In this document: positions 8,403 to 15,728 of the stretch, piece after piece | How the letters are laid out: each line of letters opens with the position of its first letter | How positions within the stretch are numbered: position 1 is the first letter of the stretch | Source of the DNA: Prevotella sp. | GTDB lineage: Bacteria; Bacteroidota; Bacteroidia; Bacteroidales; Bacteroidaceae | Assembly: GCA_017477435.1 (NCBI GenBank) | Contig: JAFUVV010000039.1 | Coordinates: forward strand, 1-50,485 | DNA length: 50,485 nucleotides | Reading direction: 5' to 3' | Notes under the pieces: generated by a model | Databases searched by the model: none | What the model saw: only the letters and a program-made list of their open reading frames with translations | What the model was told of the DNA's origin: nothing | Program-made: the position numbers and the translations under genes

Positions 8403-10181
8403 ATGAGAAAATCGTTTTCACTTGGGGTCTGTGTGCTCCTTTCGATGATTGTAACACTGCCTGCTCTTGCTATCGACCGCCAGAGCCTCGCATCGTATGC
8501 CAGTGCGCTGAACGGCAAGAAGAAGGAGGCGCTGAAGACGGCGATATATAATATAATAAAGGAGCCCAATACACTTGATTATGGTAATGGTTATAAAAGG
8601 ACTTGGTGGGGTTTTTACAGAACGGATCGTGTTGAGAGTACCAATGAGTGTATAAACAGATATAGTTCAAAAAAGTTTTATTTTCCTGCGTCTTACAATA
8701 ACAGACGACTTTTAGGAATGAACATAGAGCATTCGTTTCCTAAGAGTTGGTGGGGTAGTCTTGAAAACGTGGGGGCATATATGGATTTATATAATTTATA
8801 TCCTTCAGATTCTTTGGCAAATTCCTCAAAAAGTAATTTACCTATGGGTGTGGTTACTCAAATTGATGAAGAGGAAGAAGGATATGATAAGGTTGGGCGT
8901 GGTATTATTGATGGAGTTTCAGGTGTAAAGTGTTGGGAACCTGGCGACCAATATAAGGGTGACTTTTCCAGAGTATATATGTACATGGCTACATGCTATC
9001 AAGATTTGGAATGGAAAGGTACACAAGGTCTGCAACAATTGCAAAACGATGTTTGGCCGACGCTGAAGCAGTGGGCTTATACGCTTTATCTACAGTGGTT
9101 GAAGTCAGACCCTGTGGACGAGTTGGAGATTGATAGGAATAATGCTGTGAATGCCATCCAGGGCAACCGTAATTTATTTATTGATTATCCTTATCTGGCA
9201 GAATATGTGTGGGGCGACAGCGTAGATGTGGCGTTCAATCCTTATAGCTCTATTTCTACTGCATCGGATGATGACAGATATTTTACAGTGGCTCCCTCTG
9301 GCATCGCAACACCGACATTCTCACCAGAGGCAGGTGTATTTATAAATCCACAGACTGTCACAATATCATGTGCCACAGAAGGAGTGACAATTTATTATAC
9401 CACAGATGGTTCGTCTCCAAAAGACATGAATAATGTCTATACCGGTCCGTTGACTATCGATAATTCTTGTATTCTTCAGGCAGCAGCATCGGATGGGAAT
9501 GGCAATTGGAGCCTAATTGCGTATGCTAATTACACTATAGTCAACAGTTCACTTCTGTTCTATGAGAGTTTTGACCAATGTTCAGGAACTGGTGGAAATG
9601 ATGATAAGGGCTTTACTGAAGCGAGTACGTACAATAATACTTTCAAGCCAGATAATGAGGGTTGGATTGTTGCAGATAATAGATATTATGCAGCTAATAA
9701 ATGTGCTAAATTCGGCACCGGTAGTGTTGTAGGTGTTGTTACTACTCCGACGTTTGCTGTTAATGGTAAATCTACATTCTCATTCAAGGCTGCCCCATGG
9801 GGAACAGATGGAACGTCACTTACTTTGGCTGTGAATGGCAATGCAACGCTTTCGGAAACCAACTTGACAATGAAGCAAGGTGAGTGGACGGAGTATGTGC
9901 TTACGCTGACGGGCAGTGGGCAAGTGTCGATAACATTTACGCCAGCGAAGAGATTCTTCCTCGATGAGGTGATGGCGGTGAGCGAGAGCATGGCGGGCGA
10001 CGTGAACAAAGACGGACGTGTGGACATCAGCGACGTGACGGCTCTCATCGATATCGTCCTGGGTAAGGACAGCACGCAGCCGTATCAGTATGATCATGAT
10101 GCTGCCGACGTGAACGACGACGGAAAGACTGACATCAGTGATGTGACGGCACTCATCGATATCATACTGGGGAAGGAGTAA
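8403..10181 (+). CDS. Secreted endonuclease I family nuclease with dockerin pair
   Basis: 592 aa. Signal peptide of about 23 residues ('LPALA'). Residues about 35-280 are an endonuclease I (EndA/NucM-like) domain of the His-Me-finger type: motif NIEHSFPKSWWG at 108-119, with His110 the likely general base, and a 'DLYNLYPSD' strand after it. A chitobiase C-terminal-like module follows (about 300-380, 'VTIYYTTDGSSP'), then a jelly-roll-like region (about 385-530), then paired F-hand loops DVNKDGRVDISD and DVNDDGKTDISD. The predicted role is extracellular or surface-attached nucleic acid degradation. Its own putative promoter lies upstream, and it converges with argD across a hairpin. The nuclease family call is firm; the surface attachment is inferred. 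Confidence 0.85.
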   Translation: MRKSFSLGVCVLLSMIVTLPALAIDRQSLASYASALNGKKKEALKTAIYNIIKEPNTLDYGNGYKRTWWGFYRTDRVESTNECINRYSSKKFYFPASYNNRRLLGMNIEHSFPKSWWGSLENVGAYMDLYNLYPSDSLANSSKSNLPMGVVTQIDEEEEGYDKVGRGIIDGVSGVKCWEPGDQYKGDFSRVYMYMATCYQDLEWKGTQGLQQLQNDVWPTLKQWAYTLYLQWLKSDPVDELEIDRNNAVNAIQGNRNLFIDYPYLAEYVWGDSVDVAFNPYSSISTASDDDRYFTVAPSGIATPTFSPEAGVFINPQTVTISCATEGVTIYYTTDGSSPKDMNNVYTGPLTIDNSCILQAAASDGNGNWSLIAYANYTIVNSSLLFYESFDQCSGTGGNDDKGFTEASTYNNTFKPDNEGWIVADNRYYAANKCAKFGTGSVVGVVTTPTFAVNGKSTFSFKAAPWGTDGTSLTLAVNGNATLSETNLTMKQGEWTEYVLTLTGSGQVSITFTPAKRFFLDEVMAVSESMAGDVNKDGRVDISDVTALIDIVLGKDSTQPYQYDHDAADVNDDGKTDISDVTALIDIILGKE

Positions 10182-11430: not shown

Positions 11431-12423
11431 TCAGAATGCCGATGCCTTGAGGCGGAGGCCTGTGATTTCGTCGATGCCGGCCATGATATTCATATTCTGC
11501 ACGGCCTGTCCTACGGCTCCTTTCAGCAGGTTGTCGATTGCGGCAGTGATGAGCAGCCGACCAGCGTCTTTCTCGCAGTGGATGAGACACTTGTTGGTGT
11601 TCACCACTTGCTTCAGCGAGATGTCGCCATCCACGTAATGAGTGAACGGTTCGTCGGCATAGAAACTTTTATATATGTCCACTATATCTTCTGCCGTTGC
11701 CGTACACCGTGTCACCATCGTCGCGAAGATGCCTCGTGCGAAGTCGCCTCGCCATGGTATGAAGTCGATCGTAGGGCGTGAGCTGTCGCCGTCGAAGGAT
11801 GAAATGTTGGCCCCTAACTCGTTGAGCGACTGACATATCTCTGCGAGGTGCTGATGGCGGAATGGTTTATAGACGCTCATGTTGTCGGTTCGCCACGAGA
11901 AGTGAGTCGTCGGTTGCGGCTTCTGTCCTGCTCCAGTGCTTCCCGTGACGGCGTTGACGACCACGTCGGAGTCAATGAGTCCAGCCTTGGCGAGAGGCAA
12001 TAATCCGAGCTGCAGGCATGTAGCAAAGCACCCTGGGTTGGCTACGCAACGCGCGCCGGCAATCGCCGTACGATGGATCTCAGGCAGTCCGTAGACGAAT
12101 GGATTCCCGTCGCGGCGGATGCGGAAATCCTGCGCGAGGTCGATGATTTTCACCCTCGGCGGGATAGCGTGCTCTTTCAGAAACGCCTCGCTCTTCCCAT
12201 GTCCGAAGCATAGGAAGACGAAATCGGCGTCGTCGAACGGCATGTCGGTAGAGAATCGCATGTCGGTGTCGCCCACGAGGTCGGTGTGCACGTCGCTCAC
12301 CGGTCGTCCACCGTTGCTCTCGCTGTGGGCGAAGACTATCTCTGCCTGTGGATGATTCACGAGCAGCCGTATCAGTTCGCCGCCGGTGTAGCCGGCAGCG
12401 CCAAGAATGCCAATCCTGATCAT
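11431..12423 (-). CDS. argC: N-acyl-gamma-glutamyl-phosphate reductase
   Basis: 330 aa, normal length. NADPH-dependent reduction of N-acylglutamyl phosphate to the semialdehyde. Seen: N-terminal Rossmann motif 'GILGAAGYTGGELIRLL' at 5-21 and the catalytic Cys132 in 'NPGCFATCLQL'. 'GSTGAGQKP' follows later, as usual in the family. It starts 11 bases after the stop of the PspC-like gene and lies upstream of argD, consistent with one operon. Confidence 0.94.
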   Translation of the reverse strand: MIRIGILGAAGYTGGELIRLLVNHPQAEIVFAHSESNGGRPVSDVHTDLVGDTDMRFSTDMPFDDADFVFLCFGHGKSEAFLKEHAIPPRVKIIDLAQDFRIRRDGNPFVYGLPEIHRTAIAGARCVANPGCFATCLQLGLLPLAKAGLIDSDVVVNAVTGSTGAGQKPQPTTHFSWRTDNMSVYKPFRHQHLAEICQSLNELGANISSFDGDSSRPTIDFIPWRGDFARGIFATMVTRCTATAEDIVDIYKSFYADEPFTHYVDGDISLKQVVNTNKCLIHCEKDAGRLLITAAIDNLLKGAVGQAVQNMNIMAGIDEITGLRLKASAF

Positions 12424-12434
12424 GCGTTCCGATG

Positions 12435-12626
12435 TTAGAAATTAGGCGACTTTGGAGCCAGTATCCACAGGAGGATGTAGGCCAGCAGTCCTGTGCCGAA
12501 GCCGAAGAAGAGGACCACAAAGCCGATTCTCACGAGCAGCGAGTCGATGTTGAAATACTCTGCCAGTCCTCCGCATACGCCACCGATTTTCTTGTCGGTG
12601 GTCGACAGATAAAAGCGTTTTTCCAT
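12435..12626 (-). CDS. PspC domain small membrane protein
   Basis: 63 aa. 'KRFYLSTTDKKIGGVCGGLA' and 'YFNIDSLLVRIGFVVL' are characteristic of PspC domains, with one or two hydrophobic segments at about 32-57. PspC proteins are linked to envelope stress in other bacteria; whether this short version acts so is unknown. It is packed between argG (5-base gap) and argC (11-base gap), an unexpected place for it. Confidence 0.85.
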   Translation of the reverse strand: MEKRFYLSTTDKKIGGVCGGLAEYFNIDSLLVRIGFVVLFFGFGTGLLAYILLWILAPKSPNF

Positions 12627-12631
12627 AATTG

Positions 12632-13885
12632 TTATCTTTTTTCGTCGTTATGAATTCCGTAGTATACGCGCAGCGGCGTTGAGCTTACCTTTATGAATCC
12701 CTTTGCCTCTTCGCTTGTCCATCCGTGCTGCATCTCGCCATATTCTCCGAGTTTCGACTTCAGCAGGTCGTCTTTCGAGTCCACTCCCACGGTGTCGAAT
12801 CCGTAGGGCCGCAGTCGTAGGATAGCAGTGCCGTTCACGTTTCGTTGCGAGGAGGTGAGCATTGCCTCGATGTCGGGCATGACGGGTTCGAGGTACTGAC
12901 TCTCGTGGAGGAACATGCCGTACCAGTTAGCCACCTGGTCTTTCCAGTATTGCTGCCATTTCGAGAGAGTGTATTTCTCCAGCAGTCGGTGGGCTTCGAT
13001 GATGAGCATTGGTGCTGCGGCTTCGAATCCCACGCGCCCTTTTATCCCGATGATGGTGTCGCCGACGTTGCAGTCGCGTCCTACGGCGTATGCGGCTCCG
13101 ATTTCTTCTATTCGCTGTATGGCTTTTATCTTGTCGGTGAACCGCTCGCCGTCGACGGCAACAATCTCTCCTTTTTCAAACTCAATTTTCAGCAGTCGTT
13201 CTTCGGTCTGCGTGACGTGTTTGAGGAATGCCTCTTCGGGCAGTCCCTGCGCCGAGTCGAGCAGTTCGCCGCCGCAGATACTCGTGCCCCAGATGCCTAC
13301 GTTGTAGGAGTATTTCAGCTTGGCGAAGTCGGCATTGAAGCCATGGGCATTGAGATAGTCAACTTCGTCTTTTCGCGACAGTTTCTCGTCGCGGGTCAGT
13401 GTGATGATTTTCACCCCTGGTGCCATGACAAGGAATGTCATGTCGAAGCGTATCTGGTCGTTGCCAGCCCCTGTCGATCCGTGTGCAATGGCATCTGCTC
13501 CCACCTCGTTGGCGTAGCGTGCGATGGCGATGGCCTGGAAGATACGCTCTGAAGATACGCTGATGGGGTAGCAGTTGTTGCGCAGTACGTTGCCGAAGAT
13601 CATGTATCGGAGCGATTTCTCGTAGTATTCCTGTGTCACGTCGAGCGTCACGTAGTGCTTTGCACCGAGCTTGTAGGCGTTTTCTTCGTTCTTCTTCAGT
13701 TGCTCCTGTGAGAATCCTCCTGTGTTTGCACAGGCGGCATAAACTTCCCAACCCTCGTTTGCCAGTCGCATTACGGTGTATGATGTGTCGAGCCCGCCGG
13801 AGAATGCAACGACGACCTTGGGGGCGGAGCCCACCCCCGACCCCTCCCTGTGGAGGGGAGTTTCGAAAGTTTGATTTGCTTTCAT
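12632..13885 (-). CDS. argG: Argininosuccinate synthase with altered N-terminus
   Basis: 417 aa from the ATG at 13885; a longer upstream frame exists but that ATG overlaps the preceding stop as ATGA, the usual coupled arrangement. It joins citrulline and aspartate using ATP. The ATP pyrophosphatase loop 'VVVAFSGGLDTSYTV' normally begins a few residues after Met; here about 20 extra residues precede it (MKANQTFE... then TPLHREGSGVGSAP). Those extra residues are encoded largely by a REP-like repeat (13826-13860). The rest looks intact ('HGSTGAGNDQIRFD'). The N-terminal extension is probably tolerated, because the catalytic loop follows unbroken. Confidence 0.93.
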   Translation of the reverse strand: MKANQTFETPLHREGSGVGSAPKVVVAFSGGLDTSYTVMRLANEGWEVYAACANTGGFSQEQLKKNEENAYKLGAKHYVTLDVTQEYYEKSLRYMIFGNVLRNNCYPISVSSERIFQAIAIARYANEVGADAIAHGSTGAGNDQIRFDMTFLVMAPGVKIITLTRDEKLSRKDEVDYLNAHGFNADFAKLKYSYNVGIWGTSICGGELLDSAQGLPEEAFLKHVTQTEERLLKIEFEKGEIVAVDGERFTDKIKAIQRIEEIGAAYAVGRDCNVGDTIIGIKGRVGFEAAAPMLIIEAHRLLEKYTLSKWQQYWKDQVANWYGMFLHESQYLEPVMPDIEAMLTSSQRNVNGTAILRLRPYGFDTVGVDSKDDLLKSKLGEYGEMQHGWTSEEAKGFIKVSSTPLRVYYGIHNDEKR

Positions 13886-14332
13886 ATCTCTTTTTTGATC
13901 TTTGAAATTACGTTTTCTGTATTGGCAATTATTTCTTCGTTTTTGAAGCGTATGATTTTCCATCCTTTTGAGATTAACCACTCACTTCTCTTTTCATCAT
14001 ATTCCTTTTGTTCTGGCTGGTCGTGATATCCGCCATCTATTTCGATGGCTATTTTTTTTGTAGGACAAGAGAAATCAACTATGTAGTTTCCTATAATATG
14101 TTGTCTTCGGAAGTGCAGCCCAAGTTGTTTTCCTTTCAGATAATTCCATATTATAGCCTCAGCCTCCGTAGGATTTTTCCTGTTTTTATCTGCCAGCTCT
14201 TTTAGAACATCATAGTTTGCGCAATCCGCCGTCTGATATGATTTGCGTATGGAGCCCCCCTCCCCAGGGAGGGGTTGGGGGTGGGCTGTTCTTATGGAGC
14301 CCCCCTCCCCAGGGAGGGGTTGGGGGTGGGCT
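13826..14332 (-). mobile_element. Putative DUF559 cassette bounded by inverted REP-like repeats
   Basis: One repeat lies at 13826-13860 and two in direct tandem at 14251-14287 and 14296-14332 (period 45), in opposite orientation to the first. Over about 32 bases, the left repeat's complement and the right repeats differ at about two positions; the outer ends are AGCCCACCCCC and GGGGGTGGGCT. The interior (about 13865-14245) is strikingly AT-rich against its neighbours and encodes a DUF559 nuclease domain. The cassette lies at the junction of two arg genes, extends the upstream protein at its C-terminus and supplies a new start and N-terminus for argG. Target-site duplications were not identified. 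Confidence 0.6.
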
Positions 14333-14916
14333 TCCAGCCGTTCGATGCGGCGTAACACATCTTCCGGTATCTTTGCTGGGAGGTGTTCCTCGGGATCGAA
14401 GAGCATTGCCGTGCAGATGCAGTAGTGTCGGTCGGTGCGGCGTAGGATGTCAACGTTCTTACATCCGTTGCACCCGTCCCAGAAGGCGTCGTCGTCGGTG
14501 AGTTCGGCAAACGTCACTGGCTTGTAGCCCAGCTGCGTGTTCATCGTCATCACGGCAGCGCCGCTGGTGAGCGAGAATATCTTCGCGTTGGGCCATCTGG
14601 TGCGTGCGAGGGAGAACGTGAGGTCTTTTATCCGCTTGGCTATTCCCTGGCCGCGGAAGTCGGGATGTACGATGAGTCCGCTCGTGGTGACGTATTTTTT
14701 GTTTTCCCATGTCTCGATGTAGCTGAACCCTGCGAATCTGTCGCCGGCAAGGGCAATGACGGCCTTCGCCTGCAGTATCTTGTCGAGCAGATACTCGTGT
14801 GTGCGGCGTGCAATACCAGTTCCGCGCACGCTGGCAGCGTCGCTGATGGTCTGGAGTATCGAGTCGACATATTTCTCGTGGCTCTCATCGGCCACTACGA
14901 TTTTTATTTCTTCCAC
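13882..14916 (-). CDS. GNAT N-acyltransferase fused to DUF559 nuclease domain
   Basis: 344 aa. Residues 1-195 are a GNAT acyltransferase, with the acyl-CoA loop 'VHPDFRGQGIAKRI' at 83-96 and a 'QLGYKPV' segment. Its place between argR and argG suggests it makes N-acyl(succinyl)glutamate, the first arginine intermediate; I recall genetic work in Bacteroides supporting that role for the orthologue. Residues 197-224 are two copies of 'HPQPLPGEGGSIR', encoded by tandem repeats. Residues about 226-344 are DUF559, a Vsr-like PD-(D/E)xK nuclease fold with 'NYIVDFSCP' (Asp281) and 'IAIEIDGGYH' (Glu292, Asp294). GNAT is GC-rich and DUF559 AT-rich, so the fusion looks recent. The stop overlaps the argG start (ATGA). 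Confidence 0.85.
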   Translation of the reverse strand: MEEIKIVVADESHEKYVDSILQTISDAASVRGTGIARRTHEYLLDKILQAKAVIALAGDRFAGFSYIETWENKKYVTTSGLIVHPDFRGQGIAKRIKDLTFSLARTRWPNAKIFSLTSGAAVMTMNTQLGYKPVTFAELTDDDAFWDGCNGCKNVDILRRTDRHYCICTAMLFDPEEHLPAKIPEDVLRRIERLEAHPQPLPGEGGSIRTAHPQPLPGEGGSIRKSYQTADCANYDVLKELADKNRKNPTEAEAIIWNYLKGKQLGLHFRRQHIIGNYIVDFSCPTKKIAIEIDGGYHDQPEQKEYDEKRSEWLISKGWKIIRFKNEEIIANTENVISKIKKEI

Positions 14917-15074
14917 CTTATTTATATTTATTGGGAGTTATGGAGTTGTGGAGTAAAAGGAGTTATGACATGTGAATTGCATTTATGTGCGATATGTGCC
15001 TGCCGATGCTAAAATGGTCGCCTTTGCTCCTCTGTTTCCTGATTATTTGTCTTTATACCTTTTCTTCTGAGCGT

Positions 15075-15548
15075 TCATTCCGGCGAGAGTATCTCTCCGA
15101 GCCTCCTCACTGTTGTTTCCTTGTCGCCTGCCTCGTCGAGGGCGAGGAAGATGGTGTCGTCGCCGGCTATTGTGCCGAGGATTCCCGCGATGTTGGCCGT
15201 GTCGATGTGATAGGCTATGCTGCTGGCGTAGCCCGGTTTTGTGCGTACGACGGCGATGTTTCCCGACACCCGGAGCGTGAGGAATCCCGTGCCGTTCATC
15301 ATCTCGCTGATGGTCTGCGGGACGGGTGAGCGACGCACGATGCTCGTCTCGGGCAGTTTGTAGCAGTAGCCGCCGAGCGAGGTGGGCTGCTTCGTCACTT
15401 TCATCTTCTTCATGTCGCGGCTCAGCGTGGCCTGTGTGACGTTGTGTCCCACCTTGCGGAGCTCCACCAGCAACTCCTCCTGGCTGCCGATCTCTTTCTC
15501 GGAAAGAATCATGCGGACGTATTCGAGTCGTTCTTTCTTTGTTTTCAT
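15075..15548 (-). CDS. argR: Arginine repressor
   Basis: 157 aa from the ATG at 15548, which gives the usual ArgR N-terminus 'KKERLEYVRMILSE'; a much longer frame runs upstream without support. N-terminal winged helix with 'GHNVTQATLSRDMKKM' (SRD motif), then the C-terminal oligomerisation and arginine-binding domain with 'GTIAGDDTIFLAL'. It should repress the arg genes when arginine is plentiful. First gene of the minus-strand arg group; a 158-base gap separates it from the acyltransferase. Confidence 0.93.
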   Translation of the reverse strand: MKTKKERLEYVRMILSEKEIGSQEELLVELRKVGHNVTQATLSRDMKKMKVTKQPTSLGGYCYKLPETSIVRRSPVPQTISEMMNGTGFLTLRVSGNIAVVRTKPGYASSIAYHIDTANIAGILGTIAGDDTIFLALDEAGDKETTVRRLGEILSPE

Positions 15549-15578
15549 GAAATGTATATTTATTCTGTTTTCTGCCTG

Positions 15579-15610
15579 CAAAATTACATATTCTTGCACA
15601 AACCACCAAA
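15579..15610 (-). promoter_or_regulatory. argR promoter
   Basis: On the minus strand, TTTG (15607-15610), a 20-base spacer, then TAATTTTG (15579-15586): a full match to the Bacteroidetes promoter. About 30 bases separate the -7 box from the argR start. Confidence 0.75.
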
Positions 15611-15634
15611 TGTTTATGCGTTTTTCTGTTGTTT

Positions 15635-15653
15635 TATGCAGGTTAAATGCATG
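15635..15653. promoter_or_regulatory. Candidate ArgR operator
   Basis: TATGCA-GGTTAAA-TGCATG is an inverted repeat with ATGCA/TGCAT arms, just upstream of the argR -33 box, where an autorepressor site is expected. Known ARG boxes in several phyla carry similar TGCAT half-sites. Only one clear site is seen, so this is tentative. Confidence 0.35.
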
Positions 15654-15728
15654 TTTTGTTGCACTGGGAATATTTTTCTGCTGTGTCGGGAAGGCCGTCA
15701 GGGTGGCTTTGGTCGGTGGGTGGGGGAG

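Follow-up and report, generated by a model that had tools for sequence, protein, structure and literature searches.

What kind of element is the AT-rich DUF559 cassette that sits within a GC-rich operon, between an acyltransferase gene and argG, in a Prevotella genome, and does it have counterparts elsewhere? In the window, that is, the whole 50,485-nt stretch of DNA analyzed here, the cassette spans approximately 13828-14332 and, read along the minus strand, follows the order acyltransferase, 2 tandem repeat copies, DUF559, 1 inverted copy and argG (Table 1). The original prediction had described an AT-rich DUF559 domain amid GC-rich genes, inverted GC-rich repeats (1 on the argG side and 2 in tandem on the acyltransferase side), an acyltransferase lengthened at its C-terminus, and a new argG start with about 20 new N-terminal residues, and all of these features held up. 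The DUF559 domain matches PF04480 (E 1.5e-32, 112.1 bits; Pfam gathering cut-off, 20.6), and the GC content is 0.33-0.38 in intervals between 13850 and 14224 vs mostly 0.50-0.63 in the adjoining coding intervals. Repeat alignment confirmed the inverted arrangement, with 13828-13858 and 14257-14287 being 94% complementary over 31 nt, and the repeat core pattern has 3 matches in the window vs 0 in 100 shuffles; single-strand folding of the window repeats was not clearly better than that of shuffles (z -0.4 to -1.6).

Both flanking genes are read into the cassette. The native acyltransferase portion ends near 14340, as judged from the acyltransferase ends of relatives, and its frame stays open through both adjacent repeats (HPQPLPGEGGS twice) to the nuclease, which lies in frame within the same ORF. 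On reading the window sequence, no in-frame ATG, GTG or TTG was seen between the repeats and the DUF559 domain, and the window nuclease would therefore be made only as a fusion. On the other side, argG can start at the ATG at 13885, from which it reads MKANQTFETPLHREGSGVGSAP and then the usual ArgG sequence, with 22 residues preceding KVVVAFSGG. The window's cassette contains no gene besides the nuclease. Pfam matches of the fused protein comprise only DUF559, MTES_1575 and the GNAT host domain, with no HuH/Y1 or other transposase domain and, at E 0.001, no intein domain among them; no Rfam intron match reached the gathering score in 12400-15700, where 4 matches fell far below the cut-offs. 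Elsewhere in the window, a small reading frame (12424-12634; PspC-like by eye) lies between argG and argC and is present in several congeners, and 8403-10181 encodes an Endonuclease I joined to chitobiase-like, Fn3-associated and dockerin domains.

Table 1. Features of the DUF559 cassette and its flanking genes (positions in the window).
Feature	Position	Strand	Details and basis
GNAT acyltransferase-DUF559 in-frame fusion	13882..14916	-	344 aa, GTG start; PF04480 and reading frame
DUF559 nuclease domain, predicted Vsr-like restriction-endonuclease fold	13885..14202	-	PF04480, conserved residues, AF2 model
Inner palindromic repeat copy, acyltransferase side	14248..14287	-	in-frame reading HPQPLPGEGGS
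Outer tandem repeat copy	14293..14332	-	40-nt direct repeat, 100% identical to inner copy
Inverted repeat copy, argG side, within argG reading frame (TPLHREGSGVGS)	13828..13858	+	repeat comparison
argG, element-supplied ATG overlapping nuclease TGA, 22 added residues, native ATG absent	12632..13885	-	frame reading and empty relatives

The window gene probably encodes a DNA-cutting enzyme. The residues invariant over 39 DUF559 sequences are E, W, Q, D-F, E-x-D-G, D and R, and the best solved structure matches of an AF2 model (pLDDT 87) are 3hrl, 3r3p and Vsr. The predicted fold resembles those of Vsr and the homing endonuclease I-Bth0305I, placing DUF559 within a known homing-endonuclease fold. 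In Caulobacter, a role in mismatch repair has been proposed for the DUF559 protein VsrA, on which the DNA damage response upon methyltransferase loss depends (PMC12907096).

The junction between the acyltransferase gene and argG, 521 bp long in the window, measures 41-220 bp and lacks a nuclease in all 29 fetched congeners with this gene pair (L061-L089). These relatives provide the empty site that had been predicted, with the acyltransferase ending near the 14340-equivalent point, as does the native part in the window. The opposite outcome, the same fusion with the same flanks throughout relatives, was not observed: besides the 29 of 29 empty junctions, occupancy changes 18 times on the ArgG tree vs a shuffled mean of 18.7 and is thus scattered. 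The 45 rows of this tree (7 filled upstream of argG, 13 downstream, 1 on both sides and 24 empty) were selected in two ways, by ArgG similarity and by nuclease possession, with genome G520 appearing twice (L211 and L265) and the duplicate genomes L070, L076 and L077 left out; "empty" denotes the lack of a nuclease, with L074 and L082 bearing repeat relics. DUF559 genes with repeats of the same type at other junctions, also anticipated, were found, for example, at argG/argC in L202 and at speA/argB in L204. Six other congeners carry DUF559 between the acyltransferase gene and argG (L188, L192, L193, L198, L211 and L217), so the site itself is recurrent. In 12 congeners, fetched by their nuclease, DUF559 lies between argG and argC, as it does in L080 and L087, which are among the 29 with an empty acyltransferase/argG junction. 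Genome G520 has DUF559 at both junctions of one argG, with different repeats, approximately 1.8 kb apart.

The argG/argC junction illustrates how such sites are filled. In the close empty relatives L073, L078 and L088, the gap between the 2 genes is zero. The filled loci shown have their left repeat at or shortly after the argG stop codon (in L202, TAA is followed by GAAGCCCACCCC), succeeded by the nuclease, an ATG, the inverted repeat read in frame (NTPLLLGGVGG) and argC from about its fourth codon, with the native argC ATG missing. The start region is thus replaced; no target duplication was evident by eye between filled and empty sites, the relatives being too diverged. Relics of filled junctions also occur: at argG/argC, L082 retains a repeat pair and the new frame, still continuous with argC, without the nuclease, a REPIN-like scar, L074 only the left repeat, and L087 a truncated nuclease, and the acyltransferase-argG gap of L087 holds another REPIN-like scar, an inverted repeat pair approximately 70 bp apart without a nuclease.

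Inverted repeat pairs are a common property of DUF559 genes. Among the best-scoring matches listed, with a pair counted as positive at a score of at least 16 and other placements in the same loci serving as controls, such pairs flank 62 of 91 DUF559 genes in the genus (vs 9 of 719 control placements), 49 of 109 solo loci with enough flank in the phylum (vs 0 of 880) and 37 of 75 named loci of many phyla (vs 4 of 637), with 29, 60 and 38 loci, respectively, scoring below 16. None of these sets is a random draw: the genus loci comprise 2 from the source genome, 29 fetched by search and the 60 next-best of the match list, the phylum count omits L050, which has no anchor, and 4 solo loci with short flanks, and the named loci are the best 80 minus 5 with short flanks. 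Frames exceeding 600 aa (12 loci, 1 of them Pfam-checked) were set aside as presumed helicase fusions; the checked one, L047, is an amidotransferase fusion, and only L044 of the other 11 reached a score of 16. One long-frame match of G338 was left out of the fetched set. DUF559 matches are present in 167 of 299 congeners and PF04480 in 170 of 296 phylum genomes. The named positive loci belong to Pseudomonadota, Bacteroidota, Cyanobacteriota, Planctomycetota, Myxococcota, Zixibacteria, Kiritimatiellota and others, with no Chloroflexota locus reaching a score of 16 among the best 80. A single genome can harbor several repeat kinds, as in G166, where the 4 fetched DUF559 genes have at least 3, 2 of the 4 (L047 and L118) being alike. 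Outside the genus, some units adjoin genes on the opposite strand (L115, L125 and L177), so the operon-junction habit holds for the genus only. A canonical G-quadruplex motif is found in 34 of 124 arms vs 0.2 expected from letter shuffles. In L171 and L222, tandem repeat amplification yields tandem peptide units (ALTGTPPEEGNKT 5 times in L171).

At several junction types, the downstream start is replaced in occupied sites. The native downstream ATG is kept in none of the 37 scored filled junctions (0/7 argG, 0/11 argC, 0/14 korB and 0/5 gmk) vs all 34 scorable empty ones (26/26 argG and 8/8 argC, with korB and gmk lacking empty comparators); for want of an exact motif, the scoring left out 3 of the 29 argG empties, all but 8 argC empties, and 1 of 12 argC and 3 of 17 korB filled loci. 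An exception is gltX/waaA, where L209, L213, L214 and L229 retain a Met immediately following the repeat; a Met just after the repeat is also present in L251, L258 and L267. In 51 of 62 loci, the frame of the downstream gene has a start ahead of the right repeat and crosses that repeat without a stop, vs 16 of 124 for the other 2 frames. Of the 58 loci scored for the stop codon of the left gene (4 of the 62 being left out), 23 have it no more than 6 bp from the left repeat and 15 more have it 7-60 bp past the repeat start, so that in these 15 the repeat is read as a C-terminal extension. The 29 genus loci below score 16 are absent from the post-repeat Met, right-repeat frame and repeat type-matching analyses.

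In many loci, the nuclease itself is fused to a host protein. Its frame extends more than 120 aa past the domain in 32 of 91 genus loci (26 downstream, 5 upstream and 1 both), and Pfam at 1e-6 identified a host domain in 7 of the 10 fused genus proteins scanned (ArgB-type kinase twice, IspF, Gmk, RpiB, and poly(A)-polymerase/CCA-type twice), the 3 with none at this threshold being L188, L192 and L241; in L188 and L192, the acyltransferase was found by tblastn. All 6 phylum fusions scanned by Pfam have a host domain (HisF-type, coproporphyrinogen oxidase, RNase H, N-formylglutamate amidohydrolase, M23 peptidase and amidotransferase). DUF559 also lies inside genes, namely, an M23 peptidase gene (L127) and, in frame but at different points in L239 and L256, a CCA/poly(A)-polymerase-type gene; L240, outside the Pfam scan, has the same CCA-type gene cluster. 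Fused enzymes can be the only copy: the fused Gmk is the only PF00625 match in 5 of 5 genomes (3 of them 99% complete), and the fused IspF is the only PF02542 match in 5 of 6, the sixth (62% complete) also containing an unfused match.

Across the genus, the same junctions are used repeatedly, including korA/korB, argG/argC, acyltransferase/argG, argS/rnhA, gltX/waaA and porV/ispF, as well as galK/nucleotidyltransferase, yicC/gmk, speA/argB, ffh/folD, tkt/rpiB and the etf operon (genes named by eye and only partly by Pfam). One junction can be occupied by distinct nuclease clades that differ in their repeats, and some clades in turn occur at more than one junction: on the nuclease tree, which is built on few columns and has many unresolved forks, etfB/etfA groups with korA/korB (99/87) and speA/argB with ffh/folD and tkt/rpiB (98/82). 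With the 13 of 91 rows that have no site group left out, site labels change 23 times on this tree, compared with a minimum of 13 and a mean of 55.3 after shuffling, indicating that nuclease lineages are site-faithful, with switches. Such mostly site-specific lineages would also be expected if these were old vertical fusions, with one ancient DUF559 entry per junction, many losses and repeats diverging in place. Pointing the same way, the acyltransferase fusion is common to 5 of the 7 occupants of its junction, and in 7 of the 10 comparisons made within sites, nuclease distance correlates with flanking-gene distance (r 0.51-0.90; korA/korB and gltX/waaA on both sides, argG/argC and argS/rnhA on the left and acyltransferase/argG on the right, with the other 3 not correlating), so that some occupants may have been inherited vertically or carried along with their flanks by co-conversion. 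Nevertheless, we consider purely vertical descent unlikely, given that dissimilar nucleases occupy the same junction in near-identical hosts (in L202 and L210, 95% for ArgG and 49% for the nuclease; in L206 and L233, 96% for KorB and 57% for the nuclease), related nucleases occupy different junctions, and shuffling the labels on the ArgG tree makes occupancy no more scattered than it already is.

The repeats follow the type of the nuclease, between sites as well as between genomes. Among 1372 pairs of nucleases from different sites and different genomes, nuclease and repeat similarity are correlated (r 0.281), a value reached in 0 of 999 permutations (maximum 0.131); the test covered 62 genus loci with arms, 56 of them site-labelled, with labels pooled. 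Mean repeat similarity is 0.86 in the 22 pairs with a nuclease similarity of at least 0.7, which stem from 3 clade groups (kor/gltX, argB/folD/rpiB and kor/etf), and about 0.40 below 0.6. Among the 12 same-genome nuclease pairs, no correlation between repeat and nuclease was found (r 0.19, 285 of 999 permutations), repeat similarity being below 0.65 in 11 and 0.84 in one. This matching of repeat to nuclease weighs against a housekeeping Vsr-like repair or restriction nuclease near which ordinary terminators or REPs accumulate, as do the rarity of inverted pairs at other positions of the same loci and the position of the right repeat, terminators being unexpected within a downstream reading frame. 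The role proposed for VsrA (PMC12907096) and the modeled Vsr fold match would suit a housekeeping enzyme, an explanation that we nonetheless regard as quite improbable.

Palindromes are also dispersed through genomes, in numbers linked to the nuclease. The pattern CCCCTCCN{2,8}GGAGGGG was counted in 120 congeners, its reversed form giving 0-2 matches per genome. The 65 genomes with DUF559 have a median of 29 palindromes (41 have at least 20 and 6 have none) vs a median of 0 in the 55 without (29 have none and 2 have at least 20; p 1.7e-11), and the count follows DUF559 copy number (Spearman 0.69). The 29-row tree, with L083 left out, offers only 5 phylogenetically independent pairs (approximately 3.6 for, 0 against and 1.4 tied; not significant), so relatedness may underlie this correlation. 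Alternatively, the nuclease could be passenger cargo, with an IS200/RAYT transposase or some other enzyme mobilizing the palindromes; REPs and REPINs are linked to RAYT (TnpA-REP) (PMC3116915, PMC8266576). We regard this as highly improbable, because palindromes increase in number with the presence and copy number of DUF559, the type of repeat matches that of the nuclease and the window's cassette is devoid of any other gene.

In the source genome, a second full DUF559 gene sits between etfB and etfA (L001 1393-1915, G000:C25), flanked by an inverted repeat pair that differs from that of the window (AGCCTCACCCCC...) and with etfA extended; next to the third PF04480 match (L003, 23.8 bits), no such repeats were seen by eye. 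The repeat of the window (type A) has 27 matches in this genome, including the 3 in the window, but 9 of the 27 share one multi-copy upstream context (TTAAGACTGTTACTTGGGCCC; L004, L005, L010, L012, L013, L016, L020, L023 and L025), so the copies are not all independent. Several of these 9 lie near contig ends, and L014 shows a run of tandem repeat starts. The repeat of the etf cassette (type B) has 6 copies at up to 1 mismatch, 2 of which belong to the cassette itself; at up to 2 mismatches, there are 8 matches vs 4 control matches, making its dispersal weak.

Considering the recurrent unit with its type-matched repeats, the patchy occupancy of its sites, the start replacement and fusions, and the link between nuclease and palindrome numbers, we propose, with a probability of about 0.72, that the cassette is a member of a widespread, repeat-associated homing-like element, a REP-like nuclease-palindrome pair that captures gene starts, its cutting and movement being what we infer. 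The unit consists of a DUF559 nuclease, with its predicted Vsr fold, and 2 inverted copies of its own palindrome, and in the genus it recurs where the stop of one housekeeping gene meets the start of another on the same strand. Its left repeat often begins at the upstream stop codon, whereas the right repeat usually forms part of the reading frame of the downstream gene; at several junction types, the native start of that gene is replaced by one within the element. The nuclease would cut empty junctions and/or its own palindrome, and repair would copy the element in, in a homing-like manner. Dispersed palindromes might arise as by-products or represent non-autonomous copies, in the way that REPINs relate to RAYT, although palindromes may have other roles, for example, in termination. 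An element captured in frame would leave the host gene functional and would be difficult to lose cleanly, and loss of the nuclease can leave repeat scars. The original prediction of a selfish module that targets junctions and survives by in-frame fusion thus stands in that units at other junctions and in-frame survival are widespread, but it needs qualification: the acyltransferase/argG site is recurrent, vertical inheritance or co-conversion may account for some of the spread, and movement is an inference.

Several known systems share some of these properties. RAYTs are HuH tyrosine enzymes, and the REP/REPIN-RAYT system resembles the element described here in that type-matched inverted palindromes bound a nuclease gene and have further copies scattered through the genome; by contrast, the nuclease here is predicted to have a Vsr fold, and the window repeats, the family inspected by eye, bear no GTAG or CGTC tag at the palindrome foot. 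To our knowledge, start-codon capture and fusion to essential genes are no part of the REP picture. The homing endonuclease I-Bth0305I, of the Vsr-fold family named EDxHD, sits in a phage intron, whereas the window unit lacks an intron at the Rfam gathering score, has its own palindromic ends and has relatives at other junctions. In fungal mitochondria, endonuclease elements are reportedly fused to a gene end that they replace (Paquin and Lang); they likewise have an endonuclease ORF in frame with a host gene and supply a new gene terminus, but are organellar and replace the C-terminus, and we know of no cognate palindrome families for them. Rickettsia palindromic elements are palindromes read in frame inside proteins, as are the repeats here, but they are protein-internal, the DUF559 units lie at operon junctions, and no nuclease associated with the Rickettsia elements is known to us. 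Finally, VsrA of Caulobacter (CCNA_02930) is a DUF559 protein with a Vsr-like fold, but it was studied as a mismatch-repair-type nuclease, and the accessible part of its description names no flanking palindromes or mobility. Our literature search found no report of such a DUF559-palindrome element, and it appears to be a mobile element of a type not previously described.

On a bolder reading, which we hold tentatively and at somewhat less than even odds, DUF559 would represent a bacteria-wide selfish class that homes into operon stop/start junctions with type-matched palindromes, replaces the downstream start and becomes the obligatory N-terminus of essential enzymes, to be lost only by rare exact repair, and the dispersed GC-rich palindromes of many genomes would be its non-autonomous offspring. 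If the proposed homing-like element is real, it would provide a large, functionally uncharacterized domain with a role and tie a second enzyme family, besides RAYT, to bacterial palindromic repeats, predicting cognate nuclease-palindrome pairs that can be tested. It would also reveal a route by which essential enzymes gain N-terminal extensions or whole nuclease domains and would explain the odd proteins in which DUF559 is joined to a housekeeping enzyme.
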